From assembly GCA_018715935.1 (NCBI GenBank), contig DVKR01000012.1:1-64000 (forward strand): 64,000 bases of DNA. The letters run 5' to 3'. The first letter of the stretch is position 1. Each line of letters opens with the position of its first letter. The position numbers and the translations under genes were made by a program. Origin of the DNA: Candidatus Aphodovivens excrementavium. GTDB lineage: Bacteria; Actinomycetota; Coriobacteriia; Coriobacteriales; Eggerthellaceae. Shown here in pieces: positions 24,050-32,536 of the stretch. The notes beneath the pieces are model-generated. The model worked only from the letters and a program-made list of their open reading frames with translations, made no database searches and was not told where the DNA came from.

Positions 24050-25645
24050 TTAGTGACGGAAATGGCGGTGGCCGGTAAACACCATGGCGATGCCGTGCTC
24101 GTCGCAGGCTTGGATGCTCTCGTCGTCGCGGATGGAGCCGCCGGGCTGGATGATGGCAGTCACGCCGTAGCTCGCCAGCATGTCGATGTTGTCGCGGAAC
24201 GGGAAGAACGCGTCCGACGCGGCAACCAGGCCCTCGGGCGCAACGCCCATGCGCTCGCACGCCTCGTGGGCGCGCTTGCAGGCAAGCTCGGCCGAGTCGA
24301 CGCGGTTGGGCTGCCCGGGGCCCATGCCGATGCCCGCGTGGTCTTTGGACACGAGGATCGCGTTGGACTTGACGCCCTTGCACACGCGCCACGCGAACAG
24401 CAGCTCATGCATCTCCTCGTCGGTGGGCTTGCGCTTGGTGGGCACCGTGAAATCTGCGGGCTTCTCGTTCACGCGGTCGGTGCACTGGGCCAGCATGCCG
24501 CCGTCAACGCTGCGGAACTCGATAGCCGCAGGCGCGTCGACGCCGCCGGTGCGCAGCACGCGCACGTTCTTCTTCTGCTGCAGCAGCTCGAGCGCTCCCT
24601 GCTCGTAACCGGGGGCGATGACCACCTCGATGAACTGCTTGTTTGCGTTGATGTGCTCTACCATCTCCTGGGTGACCTCGACATTTGCCGCGATGATGCC
24701 GCCAAAAGCGCTCTTGGGGTCGCAGGCGAACGCCTTGTCGTAGGCCTCGGTAACCGTCGCCGCGACCGCCGACCCGCAAGGGTTTTGGTGCTTGAGGATC
24801 ACGACCGCCGGCTCGTCAAACTCGCGCACGAGCGACCAGCAGGCATCGGTGTCCAGGATGTTGTTGTAGGAAAGCTCCTTGCCGTTGAGCTGCTCGGCGT
24901 TGACCAGGCTGTGCGGGCTGGCAAAGTCGTCCATGCGGTAGAACGCGGCAGTCTGGTGCGGGTTCTCGCCGTAGCGCAGACCCTGCTGTTTGACCAAGCG
25001 CAAGTCGCACGCCTCGGGCGGCTCGGCGGGCCACTCCGTGCCCTCGCCCAGCTGCGCCTCGAGCCAGCGCGCGATGGCGCCGTCGTAGGCGTTGGTGGTG
25101 CGAAACACCTCGAGCGCGAGCTTGCGGCGGGTCTCAAGCGTGGTTGCCCCGCCGTTGGCGCGCATCTCGTCGAGGATGGCGTCGTAGCTGGCAGGATCGG
25201 TGACCACGGCAACCGACGCATGATTTTTTGCAGCAGAGCGCAGCATCGACGGGCCGCCGATGTCGATGTTTTCGATACAGGTGTCGAAGTCGGCGCCGCT
25301 CGCGACCGTCTTCTCGAAGGCGTAGAGGTTGACAACCACCATGTCGATCATCTGGATGCCGTGCTCGGCGGCCTCCTCCATGTGCTTGGGGTTGTCGCGC
25401 TTTGCCAGCAGCCCGCCGTGCACCATCGGATGCAGGGTCTTGACGCGGCCGTCCATCATTTCAGGAAACTTGGTCACCTCGTCGATGGGCGTGACGGGGA
25501 CACCGCCCTCCGAGATCGCCCGAGCGGTGCCGCCCGTAGAAATGATTTCCGCACCGAATTCGTCGTGCAAGGCGCGTGCAAATTCCACAACGCCCGTTTT
25601 GTCGGTTACCGACATCAAAACGCGCTTAACCTTGGGGTTTTCCAT
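24050..25645 (-). CDS. purH: bifunctional AICAR transformylase/IMP cyclohydrolase
   Basis: PurH does the last two steps to IMP. The N-terminal MGS-like cyclohydrolase domain (about 1-200) has STGGTA and [13 protein letters not shown]. The AICAR transformylase domain follows with YGENPHQ, the catalytic KHQNPCG and QPGGSIRD. The 531-residue length is normal. A GGAGG site stands ten bases before the ATG. Downstream are the flippase and thioesterase genes. Confidence 0.98.
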
Positions 25646-25902: not shown

Positions 25903-26895
25903 CTATTCGCGGCCCAAACTCGCTTCGTGCTTAGCCTGCGCATCGGCGCTGTAGCGCTGCCGATAACGCACGTCAACCAGCTCGGCAACAATGGAGATGG
26001 CAAGCTCGGCCGGAGTTTTCGCGCCGAATTTCAACCCGATAGGTCGCTTGATGCGCTCCCAGTCTTGCTCGGACGCGCCCTTGGCAAGAACTAGATCGTG
26101 CACGGTTTCGTTTTTGCCCTTGCAGCCCATCATCCCCACGTAATGCGCATTATGGCTGGTAGCCCACACGCATCCCTCGGGGTCGAACATATGCCCGCGC
26201 GTAAGCACGCACACGTAGTCTTGCGGCGCGCAGGCGTAATCCCGCAGGCCGTCGAAGTTGCCGCCATCGAGCACGATGCGGCGCGCATCGGGGAAACGCT
26301 GCTCGCTTATGTACGCCGGGTCGTAATCCACAACGGTTACCTCAAACCCAACATGAGCCGCCAACGCCGCCACCTCGCTCGCCGCATCGGAGGCGCCAAG
26401 CAGCCACACTTTCACCGCGTCGAATAGCGGCACCGACAGCCAGGTGAGGCCCTCGAACTGCTCGTTGTGCATGCTCGGCCCGCGGGTGACGTCTTTCATT
26501 TGGAACTTGTCTCGGTCGGAATACGCGCGGGAAGCAACGATCTCTTTGGCGTCGTTGCAGAAGAACACCAACGGCTCTCCGTCGGCAGAGCCGATCTCGC
26601 CGTACTTTTTCGTCACCTCGTTGTCGGTATTGCGCTGCGCCTCGCCCGCATCGTAGACGATCTTGAAGCCAAGCCAGGCAAGATCGCCTTCCTCTATTGC
26701 CTTGAGGGCGCGCTCGAATGTAGGTATATCGTCTGCGGTAAGGCTCTGCGCAACAGCCTGCAAATAGTCTGGCCGCACGTGCTGGTTACCCGCCAAAGCC
26801 TCTTCGGAAAAGCAGGCAAAGTCTGCCGGATGAAGCACAGGGGTGCGCCCGTCGCGCAAATCGGCAACGATGCCTTCCAGTATCGCCTTGTCCAT
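25903..26895 (-). CDS. XdhC/CoxI-family protein
   Basis: The 330-residue protein carries a short N-terminal CoxI-like part (GEPLVFFCNDAK) and a C-terminal Rossmann domain (VWLLGASDAASEVAALA, VTVVDYDP, YVGMMGCKGK, RPIGLKFGAKTPAELAISIVAEL). This is the XdhC arrangement. XdhC proteins sulfurate and insert molybdenum cofactor into xanthine dehydrogenase-type enzymes. No xdhAB is present here; the only molybdoenzyme nearby is the DMSO-reductase-type gene at 27755. AAGGAG precedes the ATG at 26895. It follows purN by 19 bases, so it is co-transcribed with it. Confidence 0.85.
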   Translation of the reverse strand: MDKAILEGIVADLRDGRTPVLHPADFACFSEEALAGNQHVRPDYLQAVAQSLTADDIPTFERALKAIEEGDLAWLGFKIVYDAGEAQRNTDNEVTKKYGEIGSADGEPLVFFCNDAKEIVASRAYSDRDKFQMKDVTRGPSMHNEQFEGLTWLSVPLFDAVKVWLLGASDAASEVAALAAHVGFEVTVVDYDPAYISEQRFPDARRIVLDGGNFDGLRDYACAPQDYVCVLTRGHMFDPEGCVWATSHNAHYVGMMGCKGKNETVHDLVLAKGASEQDWERIKRPIGLKFGAKTPAELAISIVAELVDVRYRQRYSADAQAKHEASLGRE

Positions 26896-26914
26896 CGCTT
26901 GCTCCTTACCATCC

Positions 26915-27532
26915 TTACAACGAAATAGATACCTTACGATCCGACCCAACCGTAACGCGACCTTCAGCAATCCAGCGAAGCACGCGCGGATACAGCTCGT
27001 GCTCTACCGCATGGATGCGCCCTTCGAGCTGCTCAACCGTCATATTCTCCTCGACGCGCACTGGCTCCTGCGCCACAATGGGGCCTTTGTCGTAATCCTC
27101 GTTGGCGAAATGCACGGTAACGCCCGTCACCTTCACGCCCGCATCGAAGGCGTCTTGTATAGCGTGAGCGCCCTTGAACGACGGCAAAAGCGCCGGATGG
27201 AGGTTAAGAACCCGGTCGGGAAACGCCTTGAGCATCACCGGCGTTACCTTGCGCATATAGCCCGCCATTACCACGTACTCAGCCCCCGCTTCGCGCAGCT
27301 CGTTTACGATAAGCTCGTCGGCGGCAAGCGGGTCGGCGTAGCGTTCGCGGTTCATCACCAAAACGGGGATGTTCGCGGCCTTTGCGCGCTCGATTCCATA
27401 GGCGTCAGGCCGGGACGACACCACCTTCACGATGCTGACAGGCAGGCCCTCCTGCGCAATGCCGTCGATTATCGCCTGCAGGTTTGTGCCGCTGCCCGAG
27501 AGCAACACGCCAATCTTTACCGGCTGGGTCAT
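26915..27532 (-). CDS. purN: phosphoribosylglycinamide formyltransferase
   Basis: PurN formylates GAR with 10-formyl-THF. The 205 residues show GVLLSGSGTNLQAII at the N-terminus, the catalytic LNLHPALLPSFKGAHA segment (Asn and His) and GVTVHFANEDYDKGPIVAQ with the catalytic Asp. AGGAGG lies five bases before the ATG at 27532. It starts a purN-xdhC unit divergent from the molybdoenzyme gene. Confidence 0.97.
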   Translation of the reverse strand: MTQPVKIGVLLSGSGTNLQAIIDGIAQEGLPVSIVKVVSSRPDAYGIERAKAANIPVLVMNRERYADPLAADELIVNELREAGAEYVVMAGYMRKVTPVMLKAFPDRVLNLHPALLPSFKGAHAIQDAFDAGVKVTGVTVHFANEDYDKGPIVAQEPVRVEENMTVEQLEGRIHAVEHELYPRVLRWIAEGRVTVGSDRKVSISL

Positions 27533-27659
27533 AACGCCTCCTCGCTTGAGCTTTGCGCAGCCCGCCTCTTCCCAGGAGCATACGCTTTTTCCAGTATACC
27601 GAACATACACGCCTCGTCTTGTTCGATTACGCCAAAACGCTTGGGCAGCACATCGACAT

Positions 27660-27686
27660 TTGACCGAAGCAGGTCTAGCATACAAT
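27660..27686 (+). promoter_or_regulatory. candidate promoter of the molybdoenzyme gene
   Basis: TTGACC (27660-27665) and TACAAT (27681-27686) are spaced by 15 bases (16 if TTTGAC is taken). Initiation would leave a leader of about 60 bases. The short spacer makes this a moderate candidate. Confidence 0.5.
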
Positions 27687-27754
27687 CAACAAGAAGGAAT
27701 TCCTGTTCTTTCCGTGCGCAGGTCGACGGAGGGCACACAACGAAAGAAGGCGTC

Positions 27755-29845
27755 ATGCAGACCCTGCGAAAAGATTGTATTTGCGGACTATGCCAAGGCG
27801 GCTGCGATGTCGTCGTAGAAATCGAAAACGACCGCATATCCAAGGTGCGCGCCAACAAAAACTCTCCTCGCGGGCGCGTCTGCCCCCGCGCGGCGCACAC
27901 CCCCGAGGCACTCTACGGCAGGCAGCGCATCTTGCACCCCATGGTGCGCGAGGGGAAACGCGGCGAAGGGAAACTGCGGATCGCAAGCTGGGACGAAGCG
28001 CTCGAGGTGGCAGCCCGGCTCATTTCTTCGGTAGTCTCTTCCTTTGGGCCTCGCGCTTTCGCCACCTATTTCGGACGCGGCGTTCTCGGCACGCCGGTTG
28101 CGCGGCTGGCAAAGGGTAAAGAAGCGTTCGCGAAGCGACTCGGGTCTCCTAACGACACCTCGTGCTCGTCTATCTGTAACCTGTCTGCTAACACCATCGT
28201 TCCGCAGTCCACCTTCGGCCTGGCAACCCGCCAGATGCTGTTCGACATCGAGCACGCCGACCTGATTGTGTGCTGGGGCAAAAACCCCTCAAGCGACGAA
28301 GGGCCGCGCGTTTTGCTGAAGCGCATCAAGGCGGCAAAAGAGCGCGGGGCGAAGCTGATCGTGGTGGATCCGCGTCAAACGGGAATCGGGCAGCTGGCAG
28401 ATTGGTGGGTGCCCGTGCGTCCCGGATCCGACGGTGCGCTTGCGTTAGCGCTGCTCAAAGTCATCATCGACAAGAAAGCCTACGACGAAAGCTTCGTATC
28501 CGACTTCACGCGCGGGTTCGACGAGCTTGTGGCCTACCTCGATACGCTTTCCCTGGAAACCTTGTCGCACCAGTGCGGCATTGGAGTTCAAGACATCGCC
28601 AAGCTTGCAGACGCGCTTGCCTCTACCACCAAAGCCCCTCTGGTGTTCTACACCGGCATCGAATACCAGGCATCCGCCCTGCAAAACGCGCGTGCGATAT
28701 GGACCTTGTGGGCCATTACCGGCAAGCTCGATGCAGAAGGCGGCGTGTTCTTCCGCATGAAAGGCGTTAAGCCCTTCCCCGCCAACCATCTTGCCGAGGA
28801 TGCCGAAGAGCCTATCGGGGCAAAGGAGTTCCCTTTGTTCTATCGCTACATTGGACAGGCAGACTTCGTCCGCTTTCCCCGCGCCGCACTCGAAGACGAC
28901 CCCTACCCCGTACGCGGCCTGCTCATAACGGGAGGCTCGCCTGCCACCACCTTCCCCGACAGCTCCGCTTGGAAACGGGCATACGCCAAGCTGGAATGCC
29001 TGATTGCCATCGACCGCTTCTTCACCGAAGAGTGCCGTTGGGCCGATGTGGTACTGCCTGCAACAAGCCTTTTCGAAACGCCGCGGCTGGCATTCGGGGA
29101 GCACGGCGCCTTCGTTCGGGAGCCGGTTGTAAAGCCGGCAGGAGAAGCCCACAACGACGTGCTCATTATGTCCGGTATCGCCAAGCGCCTGGGGGTAGAC
29201 GAAGGACTGCCGCACACCGACGAGGAGCTGCGACAGTGGATGGTCGCAGGCGCGGTTGCGCCCTACACCGACATGTGGACGCGCGCCGTGCCCGAAAACG
29301 CAGAGTTCCGAAAATACGAAAGCGGCGCTTTGCGCGCTGACGGAAAGCCAGGCTTCGCCACCCCGTCGGGCAAGTTCGAGATCGCGTCGCTGGTTTTGGA
29401 GGAGCACGGGATCGAGCCGCTGCCCAAATACGTTGACATCCACGACTTCACCGGGCAAAGCGAACGCGAATGGCCGTTTTTGCTCTCAACGGGCGCACGC
29501 GACGATGCGCGCATGGGCGCTTTCGGCGCCAACATCGACAGCATTGCGCACCTGGACGACCCGCATGCGGAATTGTGCGCTGAAGACGCCGCCCGCCTGG
29601 GCGTCTCGGACGGCGACAGGGTGCGTGTGAGCACTATCTACGGCAGCCTCGTCGCGCCGGTTCGCATAGCGGGCATAGCGCAAGGAGCAGTTCATCTGCC
29701 CCACGGCGGCGGAAGCTCCTACATGCCGCCCGCCTGGAGAGACAGCAACTGCAACGACCTCGCAAGCCTCGACGCCGTCGACCCCGACACCGGATTCGTC
29801 CTCATCAAAACACTGCCCTGTAGGGTGGAGAAGGTCGCTGGCTAA
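27755..29845 (+). CDS. cytosolic molybdopterin oxidoreductase (DMSO-reductase family)
   Basis: The 696-residue protein begins with a [4Fe-4S] motif (Cys10, Cys13, Cys17, Cys43) followed by the Mo-bisPGD core; GSPNDTSCSSICN places Cys141 as the probable molybdenum ligand. Later landmarks are VCWGKNPSSDEGP, VVDPRQT, ADVVLPATSLFE, and a C-terminal dinucleotide-binding domain (LLSTGARDDARMG). It has no twin-arginine signal and no adjacent iron-sulfur or membrane subunit, so it acts in the cytosol with a separate electron partner. GAAAGAAGG precedes the ATG. Substrate unknown. Being inserted among pur genes opposite purN-xdhC is the only context. Confidence 0.92.
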   Translation: MQTLRKDCICGLCQGGCDVVVEIENDRISKVRANKNSPRGRVCPRAAHTPEALYGRQRILHPMVREGKRGEGKLRIASWDEALEVAARLISSVVSSFGPRAFATYFGRGVLGTPVARLAKGKEAFAKRLGSPNDTSCSSICNLSANTIVPQSTFGLATRQMLFDIEHADLIVCWGKNPSSDEGPRVLLKRIKAAKERGAKLIVVDPRQTGIGQLADWWVPVRPGSDGALALALLKVIIDKKAYDESFVSDFTRGFDELVAYLDTLSLETLSHQCGIGVQDIAKLADALASTTKAPLVFYTGIEYQASALQNARAIWTLWAITGKLDAEGGVFFRMKGVKPFPANHLAEDAEEPIGAKEFPLFYRYIGQADFVRFPRAALEDDPYPVRGLLITGGSPATTFPDSSAWKRAYAKLECLIAIDRFFTEECRWADVVLPATSLFETPRLAFGEHGAFVREPVVKPAGEAHNDVLIMSGIAKRLGVDEGLPHTDEELRQWMVAGAVAPYTDMWTRAVPENAEFRKYESGALRADGKPGFATPSGKFEIASLVLEEHGIEPLPKYVDIHDFTGQSEREWPFLLSTGARDDARMGAFGANIDSIAHLDDPHAELCAEDAARLGVSDGDRVRVSTIYGSLVAPVRIAGIAQGAVHLPHGGGSSYMPPAWRDSNCNDLASLDAVDPDTGFVLIKTLPCRVEKVAG

Positions 29846-29848
29846 CGA

Positions 29849-29885
29849 AGAAGGCCGCCTCGCGAATCGCGCGAGGCGGCCTTCT
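29849..29885. terminator. bidirectional terminator between molybdoenzyme gene and purM
   Basis: A perfect 16-bp stem (29849-29864/29870-29885, arms AGAAGGCCGCCTCGCG and its complement) with a five-base loop lies between two convergent genes. It lacks long T-runs but is strong and correctly placed for both. Confidence 0.75.
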
Positions 29886-29908: not shown

Positions 29909-30958
29909 TTACGCGTAGCGCACGACGCCCGTTCCGGGGACGACCTTGCCGACGACGACGGGATCCTCGCCCGCCGCGCGCAGGTTGTCCATCACGGCGT
30001 CTACCTGAGCGGGGTCGACCAGAAGGATCATGCCCAAGCCCATGTTGAACGTCTTGCGCGCCTCCTCGTCGGTAAGCCCGGCGGCCTTGCAGCCCAGCTC
30101 GACGACCGCAGGGACGTCCCACGAATCCGGCTCGACCACGGCGTCAAGGGAGCCGGGCAACGCGCGGTTCAGGTTCTCGGTGATGCCGCCGCCGGTGATG
30201 TGGGCAAGCGCGTGCACCGCGCCGGGCAGCGCCTGCAGCACGCCCAAAACCGGCTTCACGTAGATGCGCGTGGGCGCCAGAAGCGCCTCGCCGAGAGAAC
30301 GGCCGTCAAGCCCGGCGCAAGGAGCCAGAAGCTCGTCTTTCGTCTTGCCCTCCACCAGCACGCGTCGCACCAGCGAATACCCATTGGAATGGAACCCGCT
30401 CGACGCAAGCCCCACCAGCACGTCGCCGTCAAGCACGTTGTCGGGACCTATCATCTTGGGTCGGTCGACCACCCCCACGGTGAAGCCGGAAAGATCGTAG
30501 TCGTCAGGATCCATAACACCGGGATGCTCGGCCATCTCGCCGCCGATGAGCGCGCAGCCCGCCTGCCTGCATCCTTCGGCAATGCCGCCCACTACCGAGG
30601 CAACATGCTCGCGACGCAGCTTGCCAATGGCAATGTAGTCCAAGAAGAACAGCGGTTCTGCCCCGCACGCCAAGATGTCGTTTACGCACATCGCAACCAA
30701 GTCGATGCCCACGGTGTCGTGCTTTCCCAGAAGCTGAGCCAGCTTGAGCTTGGTGCCCACGCCGTCGGTGCCAGAAATCATGACAGGATCGTCCATCTGC
30801 TTGAACGCCGCCGCGCTAAACAAGCCTCCGAACCCGCCGATATCGCCAATAACCTCGCTTCGATAGGTGGAATGCACCGCATCTTTGATTGCGTCAACCG
30901 CTGCAGCGCCTTCTTCAATGTCAACGCCAGCCTGGGCGTAAGTCATCCGATCGTCCAT
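29909..30958 (-). CDS. purM: phosphoribosylformylglycinamidine cyclo-ligase
   Basis: PurM closes the imidazole ring to AIR. The 349 residues have the AIRS signatures SGTDGVGTKLKLAQ, NDILACGAEPLFFLDYIA, ALIGGEMAEHPG and HITGGGITENLNR. AAGGAAAGGG precedes the ATG. It lies 96 bases downstream of purF in the same direction, so sortase-purF-purM are probably one transcript. Confidence 0.98.
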   Translation of the reverse strand: MDDRMTYAQAGVDIEEGAAAVDAIKDAVHSTYRSEVIGDIGGFGGLFSAAAFKQMDDPVMISGTDGVGTKLKLAQLLGKHDTVGIDLVAMCVNDILACGAEPLFFLDYIAIGKLRREHVASVVGGIAEGCRQAGCALIGGEMAEHPGVMDPDDYDLSGFTVGVVDRPKMIGPDNVLDGDVLVGLASSGFHSNGYSLVRRVLVEGKTKDELLAPCAGLDGRSLGEALLAPTRIYVKPVLGVLQALPGAVHALAHITGGGITENLNRALPGSLDAVVEPDSWDVPAVVELGCKAAGLTDEEARKTFNMGLGMILLVDPAQVDAVMDNLRAAGEDPVVVGKVVPGTGVVRYA

Positions 30959-31054: not shown

Positions 31055-32536
31055 CTATCCAAGCTTTTCCAACTCCGCCTGCCATTTGGGCGACACCTCA
31101 TCTGCGGCAAGGAAGCTGCGCTTGCGCATTGCCTGCGGTATGTCCACGACGTAGTCCCCCGAGAAACAGGCATCGCAATACCCTTCGTGATCTGCAGAGA
31201 CGGCCTCATAGAGCCCTTTCAAAGAGATGTAGGCCAAAGAGTCGGCCCCAATCCATTCGCACTGCTGCTCAAGAGTCAGGTTCGCCGAGATTAGCTGGTC
31301 TTGCGTGTCGGTGTCGATGCCGTAGAAGCAAGGCCATTTTACCTCGGGAGACTCGATGCGCAAATGCACCTCTGCCGCACCCGCCTCGCGCAGCATCTGC
31401 ACAAGTTTTTTGGAGGTGTTGCCGCGCACGATGCTGTCGTCAACAACCACGAGGCGCTTCCCGCGAATCACCGAGGGCAAGGGGTTGAGCTTCAGCCGAA
31501 TGCCCAGTTGGCGCATTGCCTGTGTCGGCTGGATAAACGTGCGGCCAACGTAGCGGTTCTTCACGATGCCGTCGGAATAGGGAATCCCGCTTGCCTCGGC
31601 GTAGCCCAAAGCGCCGGGCACGCCCGAGTCGGGAACGCCAAGCACCAAATCGGCCTGCACGGGAGCCTCGCGCGCCAAAATGCGGCCCATTGCGCGACGG
31701 GCCTGATAGACGCTGCGCCCATCCATCACCGAGTCGGGACGCGCGAAATACACGTACTCGAAGATACAGGCAGCTCGACGCCGAGCGGGCACCGCCTGCT
31801 CGCTCGCCATTCCCTCCGCGTTGAAGCGCACCACTTCGCCAGGCTCTACATCGCGCACATACGTGGCGCCCACGATGTCGAGGCCGCAGGTCTCCGAAGA
31901 CACCACCCACCCGCGATCTTCGGGAAGACGCCCTATCACCAAAGGACGAATGCCGTTCGGGTCGCGGAAGGCGTAGAGGGAATCGGGGCTCGCAAGCACC
32001 ATGGCGTAAGCGCCTTCAAGCTGCTCCATCACTCCGCGTATTCCGTCGCGAAGATGGTGCGTTGCCCGCGTGATGCTTCCGATGAGCTTGGCGGCCGCCT
32101 CGGAATCGGTGCCTGCGCGCAAGTGCTCTCCGGCATCTATCAGGCGAGCGCGTATGGCGTTCGTGTTCACCAGAGTGCCGTTGTGCGCCAAGGCGATAAG
32201 CACGTCGTCTATTGCCGAAATATGAGGCTGCGCCGCCTCCCACGAGCCACCGCCGCTGGTGGCATAGCGCGCATGGCCTACCGCAACAAAGCCCTCCAGC
32301 ACAGCCAAGCTTGCCTCGTCGAACACCTGCGTGACCAAGCCAAGGTCCTTAGCCACCATGATGGTCTCGCCATCGCCTACGGCAATGCCCGCGCTTTCCT
32401 GTCCGCGATGCTGCAGGGCCTGCAGCCCGAAGCATGTCATGCGGGCAACGTCTTCGCCCGGAGCAAAAACTCCAAACACCGCGCACTCTTCTTCCAGCCT
32501 ATCGGGGCGCTCGCCGGGAAAAACCGAAGTGCTCAT
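31055..32536 (-). CDS. purF: amidophosphoribosyltransferase (Fe-S type)
   Basis: PurF commits PRPP to purine synthesis. A 17-residue propeptide precedes Cys18 (EEECAVFGVFAP), the nucleophile exposed by self-cleavage in Bacillus-type PurF. The Ntn glutaminase half is followed by the PRTase half with VVDDSIVRGNT. Cys residues in VKWPCFYGID and EGYCDACFSGD fit the [4Fe-4S] ligands of the B. subtilis enzyme. The ATG overlaps the sortase stop by four bases. Confidence 0.97.
   Translation of the reverse strand: MSTSVFPGERPDRLEEECAVFGVFAPGEDVARMTCFGLQALQHRGQESAGIAVGDGETIMVAKDLGLVTQVFDEASLAVLEGFVAVGHARYATSGGGSWEAAQPHISAIDDVLIALAHNGTLVNTNAIRARLIDAGEHLRAGTDSEAAAKLIGSITRATHHLRDGIRGVMEQLEGAYAMVLASPDSLYAFRDPNGIRPLVIGRLPEDRGWVVSSETCGLDIVGATYVRDVEPGEVVRFNAEGMASEQAVPARRRAACIFEYVYFARPDSVMDGRSVYQARRAMGRILAREAPVQADLVLGVPDSGVPGALGYAEASGIPYSDGIVKNRYVGRTFIQPTQAMRQLGIRLKLNPLPSVIRGKRLVVVDDSIVRGNTSKKLVQMLREAGAAEVHLRIESPEVKWPCFYGIDTDTQDQLISANLTLEQQCEWIGADSLAYISLKGLYEAVSADHEGYCDACFSGDYVVDIPQAMRKRSFLAADEVSPKWQAELEKLG

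Follow-up and report, generated by a model that had tools for sequence, protein, structure and literature searches.

A purine-operon XdhC-like protein of the Eggerthellaceae as a candidate cofactor factor for DMSO-reductase-type enzymes, and its probably unrelated molybdoenzyme neighbor

In gut Eggerthellaceae, drugs, dietary polyphenols and neurotransmitters are transformed by DMSO-reductase-type enzymes, of which these bacteria encode dozens. Members of the XdhC/CoxI family, including XdhC of Rhodobacter capsulatus, are chaperones that insert Moco into xanthine dehydrogenase (XDH), and a sulfur-carrying step has been proposed for canonical XdhC. The R. capsulatus protein binds Mo-MPT and is an interaction partner of MobA (PMC2997495). 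The window analyzed here, a 64,000-nucleotide stretch of an Eggerthellaceae genome, contains an intact xdhC-like gene, purN and an intact molybdoenzyme gene, which lie between purH and purM and match their earlier description from the sequence alone:

24050-25645, minus strand: purH, over the cut-off of PRK00881 / TIGR00355
25903-26895, minus strand: xdhC-like gene, 330 aa, starting 19 bp past purN
26915-27532, minus strand: purN, phosphoribosylglycinamide formyltransferase, directly upstream of the xdhC-like gene (TIGR00639, 219 bits, cut-off 150)
27755-29845, plus strand: cytosolic, solitary DMSO-reductase-superfamily oxidoreductase, 696 aa (PF00384 and PF01568)
29850-29884, no strand: perfect 15-bp inverted repeat with a 5-bp loop, terminator-like as read from the sequence
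29909-30958, minus strand: purM, over the TIGR00878 cut-off
31055-32536, minus strand: purF (Pfam GATase_6 and Pribosyltran); the order purF-purM-purN-xdhC is kept in relatives

The molybdoenzyme gene points away from purN and toward purM, and the inverted repeat separates the two convergent ends. Its product matched PF00384 (E=3.7e-37, 128.6 bits) and PF01568 (E=2.9e-11, 43.8 bits), both over the cut-off; judged by these Molybdopterin and Molydop_binding domain matches, it is a member of the DMSO-reductase superfamily. PF04879 scored 21.5 bits, just below its cut-off of 22.7, and all NCBIfam cut-offs were missed. The 4Fe-4S cysteines C10, C13, C17 and C43 were invariant in four relatives, and C141 is the predicted metal ligand based on alignment to acetylene hydratase (2e7z). 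No twin-arginine signal was found at the N-terminus, which leads straight into the C-x2-C-x3-C motif, and no partner subunit adjoins the gene. An AlphaFold model built from four sequences had a pLDDT of 39.8 and was left unused. The sequence-only reading was thus correct in treating both genes as real, with respect to their coordinates and domains as well as the cytosolic, unpartnered and purN-divergent nature of the molybdoenzyme. Its description of this enzyme as the only neighboring molybdoenzyme holds for the neighborhood but not genome-wide, as the source genome has more than 15 DMSO-reductase-type genes.

The same reading had proposed that the two genes form a functional pair, that is, that the XdhC-like protein serves specifically to mature the enzyme beside it. 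The genes are indeed adjacent in the window, as they are in two sister genomes. However, the xdhC-like gene is present in nearly all Eggerthellaceae genomes, whereas the molybdoenzyme was identified in just 4 of 138 genomes of the family, belonging to one genus plus a 49% relative elsewhere (G255) that lies in another context and not beside xdhC. Among 80 fetched xdhC loci, the molybdoenzyme was present solely in two (L017 and L018), and most of the purN-xdhC loci did not have it. We rejected the pair hypothesis on this distribution of the two genes, and a dedicated partnership now appears extremely improbable. The molybdoenzyme beside the xdhC-like gene is probably a recent, unrelated insertion.

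The linkage of the xdhC-like gene to the purine genes was far more regular. The purN gene adjoined it on the same strand in 78 of the 80 loci, with a median gap of 104 bp and an overlap in 10 loci; the two loci without a purN neighbor end at contig ends. In loci from other families, at 41-49% identity, purN, purM or purF also adjoin xdhC (L164, L165, L176, L177, L179 and L180). The best explanation is that the xdhC-like gene has long belonged to an Eggerthellaceae purF-purM-purN-xdhC-(purH) operon. We found no link of XdhC with purN in this sense in the literature consulted.

The XdhC-like protein has a Rossmann domain (Pfam XdhC_C, PF13478) at residues 163-306 (E=1.9e-33), and this domain, shared with canonical XdhC, was retained in a scan of 16 relatives. 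By contrast, the N-terminal half (residues ~1-150) has no recognized domain, and PF02625, the XdhC/CoxI domain, was absent from all 16 relatives at E<=1. In hhalign comparisons, the Rossmann part alone aligned. Neither the GGG..E and M-x-CGG motifs nor the conserved cysteine of canonical XdhC was found in the clade of the window protein; the GGG/CGG motifs are present in canonical XdhC proteins of the same order. A tree from which L207 was excluded placed the XdhC-like proteins in a separate clade with support of 100/98. Residue counts across this clade (n=31, with one row, that of L207, invalid) revealed no invariant cysteine (C258 in 21/31, C28 in 25/31), and a sulfur-carrying step would therefore have no obvious residue in the clade. 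Strongly conserved new residues were R128, D129, D135, H143, R233 and H235.

These features, together with the operon linkage in at least two families, are consistent with a role in purine metabolism, in which an XdhC-derived, nucleotide-binding Rossmann protein would regulate or assist PurF, PurM or PurN with no tie to molybdenum. The loss of the canonical motifs, the new conserved residues and a median conservation on a par with the Pur enzymes (71% versus 73% for PurN) all favor such a role. Against it, the clade is missing from the molybdoenzyme-poor genomes G055, G099 and G119, and several relatives are found outside a purine-gene context, one of them, at locus L178 of a distant genome, adjoining a same-strand DMSO-reductase-type gene. 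(At most of the distant unlinked loci the neighbors are non-molybdenum genes, which counts against a molybdenum-related function.) In addition, G119 has purF-purM-purN-purH without the xdhC-like gene, although its Pur proteins are only ~39-49% identical and the operon may have been replaced. On balance, we regard a purely purine-related function as rather unlikely. The sequence-only reading had also suggested action on purines or selenium/sulfur cofactors; no evidence pointed to purines, pterins or selenium.

To what the XdhC-like protein might be tied was indicated by the content of the genomes that carry it. The source genome (98.95% complete) has one XdhC_C protein, AFOR genes (tungsten aldehyde:ferredoxin-type oxidoreductases) and no FdhD, and no xanthine-dehydrogenase-type subunit (MoCoBD_1, PF02738) was detected in the whole genome. 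Of the two observations that the sequence-only reading had set against itself, a complete xdh operon elsewhere was thus not found in the genome, and the lack of co-occurrence of the pair was borne out. The wider sample comprised 199 genomes of the order, 68 carriers of the XdhC-like clade and 131 non-carriers, whose counts are related by descent rather than independent. All 68 carriers had a DMSO-reductase-type gene, and at least five DMSO-reductase matches were present in 66 of them versus 19 of the 131 non-carriers. Within the family the corresponding figures were 44/45 and 1/4 (Fisher p=0.0009), and the trend also held outside the family. DMSO-reductase-rich genomes without the clade (at least five matches) comprised 18 from other families and one from within the family (G183), and the clade is therefore not strictly required. 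Two genomes, G143 and G105, have the clade with a single DMSO-reductase match each, that of G143 being weak.

Strong MoCoBD_1 matches were identified in merely 12 of the 68 carriers. An ordinary XdhC, serving a xanthine-oxidase-family enzyme that escaped the assembly or the Pfam model, would account for the XdhC_C domain, but the 56 carriers without a strong match include many near-complete or single-contig genomes, the latter contradicting this account. Moreover, in G103, where XDH is present, a second XdhC gene, of the canonical type, sits next to it. We consider an ordinary XdhC hardly credible.

The top NCBIfam match of the XdhC-like protein was NF045664, an XdhC family aldehyde oxidoreductase maturation factor (E=1e-43, residues 55-310), which raised the question of AFOR maturation, as AFOR genes occur in the source genome and in 50 of the 68 carriers. 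The score of 149.9 bits is, however, far under the curated cut-off of 350 (three distant clade members scored 161-166 bits), and the "aldehyde oxidoreductase" of the family name is not necessarily AFOR. AFOR genes were lacking in 18 of the 68 carriers, six of them inside the family, and AFOR was rejected as a constant client in the strict sense; overall, we judge AFOR maturation improbable. A simple substitution for FdhD was likewise rejected, since 36 of the 68 carriers have both proteins. With AFOR missing from 18 carriers and FdhD from 32, neither explains the co-occurrence.

Our explanation, to which we give about an even chance, has two parts: the XdhC-like protein is a cofactor factor for bis-MGD enzymes, and the molybdoenzyme beside it is unrelated and lineage-specific. 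The Rossmann domain would most likely bind molybdopterin or molybdopterin guanine dinucleotide, and the protein may hand over or protect the cofactor for many bis-MGD (DMSO-reductase-type) enzymes, rather than for XDH. The known biochemistry of R. capsulatus XdhC supports this explanation. GTP is both the molybdopterin precursor and a MobA substrate, so the position in the purine operon would couple the protein to GTP supply. That linkage would fit a purine role equally well, and we counted it against our explanation. The molybdoenzyme would be a stand-alone enzyme whose gene was apparently inserted into the purM-purN interval in one genus, and may be a client like any other such enzyme, not a dedicated one. 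The suggestion of a repurposed XdhC made by the earlier reading is plausible, because there is no XDH partner, the clade is distinct and lacks the canonical motifs, and it tracks DMSO-reductase-type enzymes.

The XdhC-like protein is conserved and Coriobacteriia-specific, and it tracks the DMSO-reductase-type enzymes with no other obvious client; it is thus a concrete candidate for the maturation factor that is missing, or alternatively a new protein of purine metabolism. It should not be annotated as a xanthine dehydrogenase accessory protein. Eggerthella catechol dehydroxylase constructs, accessory genes included, are active in Gordonibacter and not in E. coli (PMC11887054), and the proposed mechanism is for this reason directly testable. 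Tentatively, and with less conviction, we speculate that a Coriobacteriia-wide, XdhC-derived clade switched clients to become a general bis-MGD-enzyme maturation factor, GTP-coupled via the purine operon, and that these dehydroxylases stay inactive in E. coli partly because it is lacking there.

Compared with known systems, the XdhC-like protein shares the XdhC_C Rossmann domain with the XdhC/CoxI family, and its AlphaFold model (pLDDT 80.7) matched the XdhC-family structures 2we8 and 3on5, the nearest solved ones. Unlike that family, it has no detectable XdhC/CoxI N-terminal domain, no GGG/CGG motifs and no XDH partner, and sits in a purine operon. NF045664 is its best family, yet no constant aldehyde oxidoreductase partner occurs among the carriers. 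Permuted XdhC-type proteins from other families of the order (alignment A4) share the Rossmann domain with its TRGH motif (hhalign probability 99.7); they have a GGG/CGG region after this domain, whereas the window clade has none. For the molybdoenzyme, the nearest solved relatives are acetylene hydratase (2e7z) and formate dehydrogenase FdhF, with which the 4Fe-4S and cysteine ligand positions align; with the formate dehydrogenase alpha model TIGR01591 it scored 236 bits, short of the 666 cut-off. In acetylene hydratase the catalytic Asp stands between cluster cysteines two and three, where the molybdoenzyme has Gln14, and the Sec/Cys ligand of formate dehydrogenase alpha is followed by His, whereas C141 of the molybdoenzyme is followed by Asn142.

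Within the window's Eggerthellaceae (Coriobacteriales) genome (2.08 Mb, 54 contigs, 98.95% complete), the sequence-only reading of an XdhC-like gene and a divergent, solitary cytosolic molybdoenzyme amid purine genes was confirmed, with a minus-strand order of purF, purM, purN, XdhC-like gene and purH:

24050-25645, minus strand, purH
25903-26895, minus strand, XdhC-like gene
26915-27532, minus strand, purN
27755-29845, plus strand, DMSO-reductase-superfamily gene (696 aa), between purM and purN
29850-29884, perfect 15-bp inverted repeat, separating the molybdoenzyme gene from purM
29909-30958, minus strand, purM
31055-32536, minus strand, purF

The XdhC-like gene and the molybdoenzyme gene do not form a pair. 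Our scan of species genomes identified 80 XdhC-like loci, and in 78 of these the gene immediately upstream was a co-oriented purN, at a median gap of 104 bp and with overlap in 10 loci; the remaining two end at contig ends. Most also had purM and purF further upstream, and many had purH downstream. The molybdoenzyme was found in only 2 of the 80 (82% identity). Among 138 family genomes it was present in the window's genus (3 genomes), and a second genus contributed one relative at 49% identity, which does not adjoin xdhC; on these counts the proposed functional pairing fails. Sister genomes have further genes between purM and purN, namely a PIN-domain gene accompanied by a small one and, in a single genome, one for a lipoprotein, so this interval looks prone to lineage-specific insertion. 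The PIN-domain gene and companion resemble a toxin-antitoxin pair (loci L203:10278-11091, L017:2625-3438 and L202:13866-14685).

The molybdoenzyme (N-terminus MQTLRKDCICGLCQGGC) is a stand-alone enzyme: it lacks a twin-arginine signal, and no gene for a partner subunit adjoins its own. It missed every NCBIfam cut-off, and its nearest solved relatives were acetylene hydratase, formate dehydrogenases and thiosulfate reductase. Its metal ligand, judged from sequence, is probably C141. Acetylene hydratase has a catalytic Asp and formate dehydrogenases a His after the metal ligand, whereas the molybdoenzyme has Gln14 and Asn142 at these respective positions. Its suggested action on purines gained no support, as no connection to purines or pterins was found in this analysis.

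The XdhC-like gene is not accounted for by any xanthine dehydrogenase in the window's genome. That genome encodes a single XdhC_C protein alongside more than 15 DMSO-reductase-type genes, and the check for xdhAB elsewhere, suggested earlier, identified no MoCoBD_1 subunit. A formate-dehydrogenase-like gene (contig C33:38451-39728) has an in-frame TGA, a probable selenocysteine. FdhD, though usual in Eggerthellaceae, was not found.

The C-terminal half of the XdhC-like protein is the XdhC Rossmann domain. Its AlphaFold model (pLDDT 80.7) best matched the XdhC-family structures 2we8 and 3on5, with a loose two-domain overlay (TM about 0.4, rmsd about 12). Searching 16 relatives for PF02625 with a threshold as lax as E=1 gave no match in any of them. 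When profiles were compared with those of canonical XdhC proteins from Coriobacteriales, alignment was limited to the Rossmann part, and the GGG and CGG motifs carried by these canonical proteins are missing from the XdhC-like clade. In the Rossmann-domain tree this clade stood apart from canonical XdhC (support 100/98). The clade's own signature combines the stretch R128-D129-x2-Q-M-x-D135-x-T-R-G-P-x-M-H143 with a T-R-G-H located in the Rossmann half, and varies little from family to family; the clade alignment has no invariant cysteine. In other Coriobacteriales families, XdhC proteins show circular permutation, the Rossmann domain preceding the GGG/CGG region (alignment A4: L097, L099, L104, L111, L113, L116, L119, L123). 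In two genomes of one genus the XdhC-like match contains an in-frame TAG (L209, G280:C94:3194-3961; L210, G282:C106:19877-20677), reflecting a pseudogene, sequencing error or recoding.

Across the wider class, the clade hardly occurs outside Coriobacteriales. Of 199 Coriobacteriales genomes 68 carried it: 45 of the 49 Eggerthellaceae and 23 from smaller families. All 68 carriers had at least one DMSO-reductase-type gene, and only 12 had a strong xanthine-dehydrogenase-type match. Five or more DMSO-reductase matches occurred in 66/68 carriers versus 19/131 non-carriers and, within the family, in 44/45 versus 1/4 (Fisher p=0.0009), all uncorrected for shared ancestry. Genome G055 lacks the clade, molybdopterin biosynthesis (MoaA) and DMSO-reductase genes. 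Neither AFOR nor FdhD, tested as partners, tracks the clade strictly. The best counter-example to a DMSO-reductase-type client is genome G143, which has the XdhC-like gene, MoaA and one weak DMSO-reductase match, with AFOR, XDH and FdhD all absent.

The purine-operon linkage is old, because it is kept at 41–49% identity in other families, where the gene adjoins purN, purM or purF (L164, L165, L176, L177, L179, L180). The main rival explanation is that the XdhC-like protein acts in purine metabolism. Other distant loci have the gene away from purine genes, among them one where it adjoins a DMSO-reductase-type gene (L178) and two where it adjoins a gene for a 4Fe-4S protein (L170, L172). The latter, following the XdhC-like gene in two genera of another family (L170:7139-8374, L172:755-1900), has 4Fe-4S domains at both ends and reached no NCBIfam cut-off. 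The complete genome G119 has purF-purM-purN-purH without the XdhC-like gene; this operon may be a replacement, as its Pur proteins are only about 39–49% identical for their main parts.

In R. capsulatus, XdhC binds and protects Mo-MPT and interacts with MobA (PMC2997495). Most likely, the XdhC-derived clade would have retained cofactor handling, presumably with cofactor binding, its clients would have switched to bis-MGD enzymes, and its purine-operon position would couple it to GTP. Of this scheme, the analysis shows the operon, the XDH absence, the separate clade, the missing domain and the co-occurrence; the cofactor binding, the clients and the GTP coupling are inferred. Eggerthella catechol dehydroxylase clusters are active in Gordonibacter and inactive in E. 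coli even with accessory genes (PMC11887054), and one candidate for part of what E. coli lacks is an XdhC-like factor specific to Coriobacteriia.
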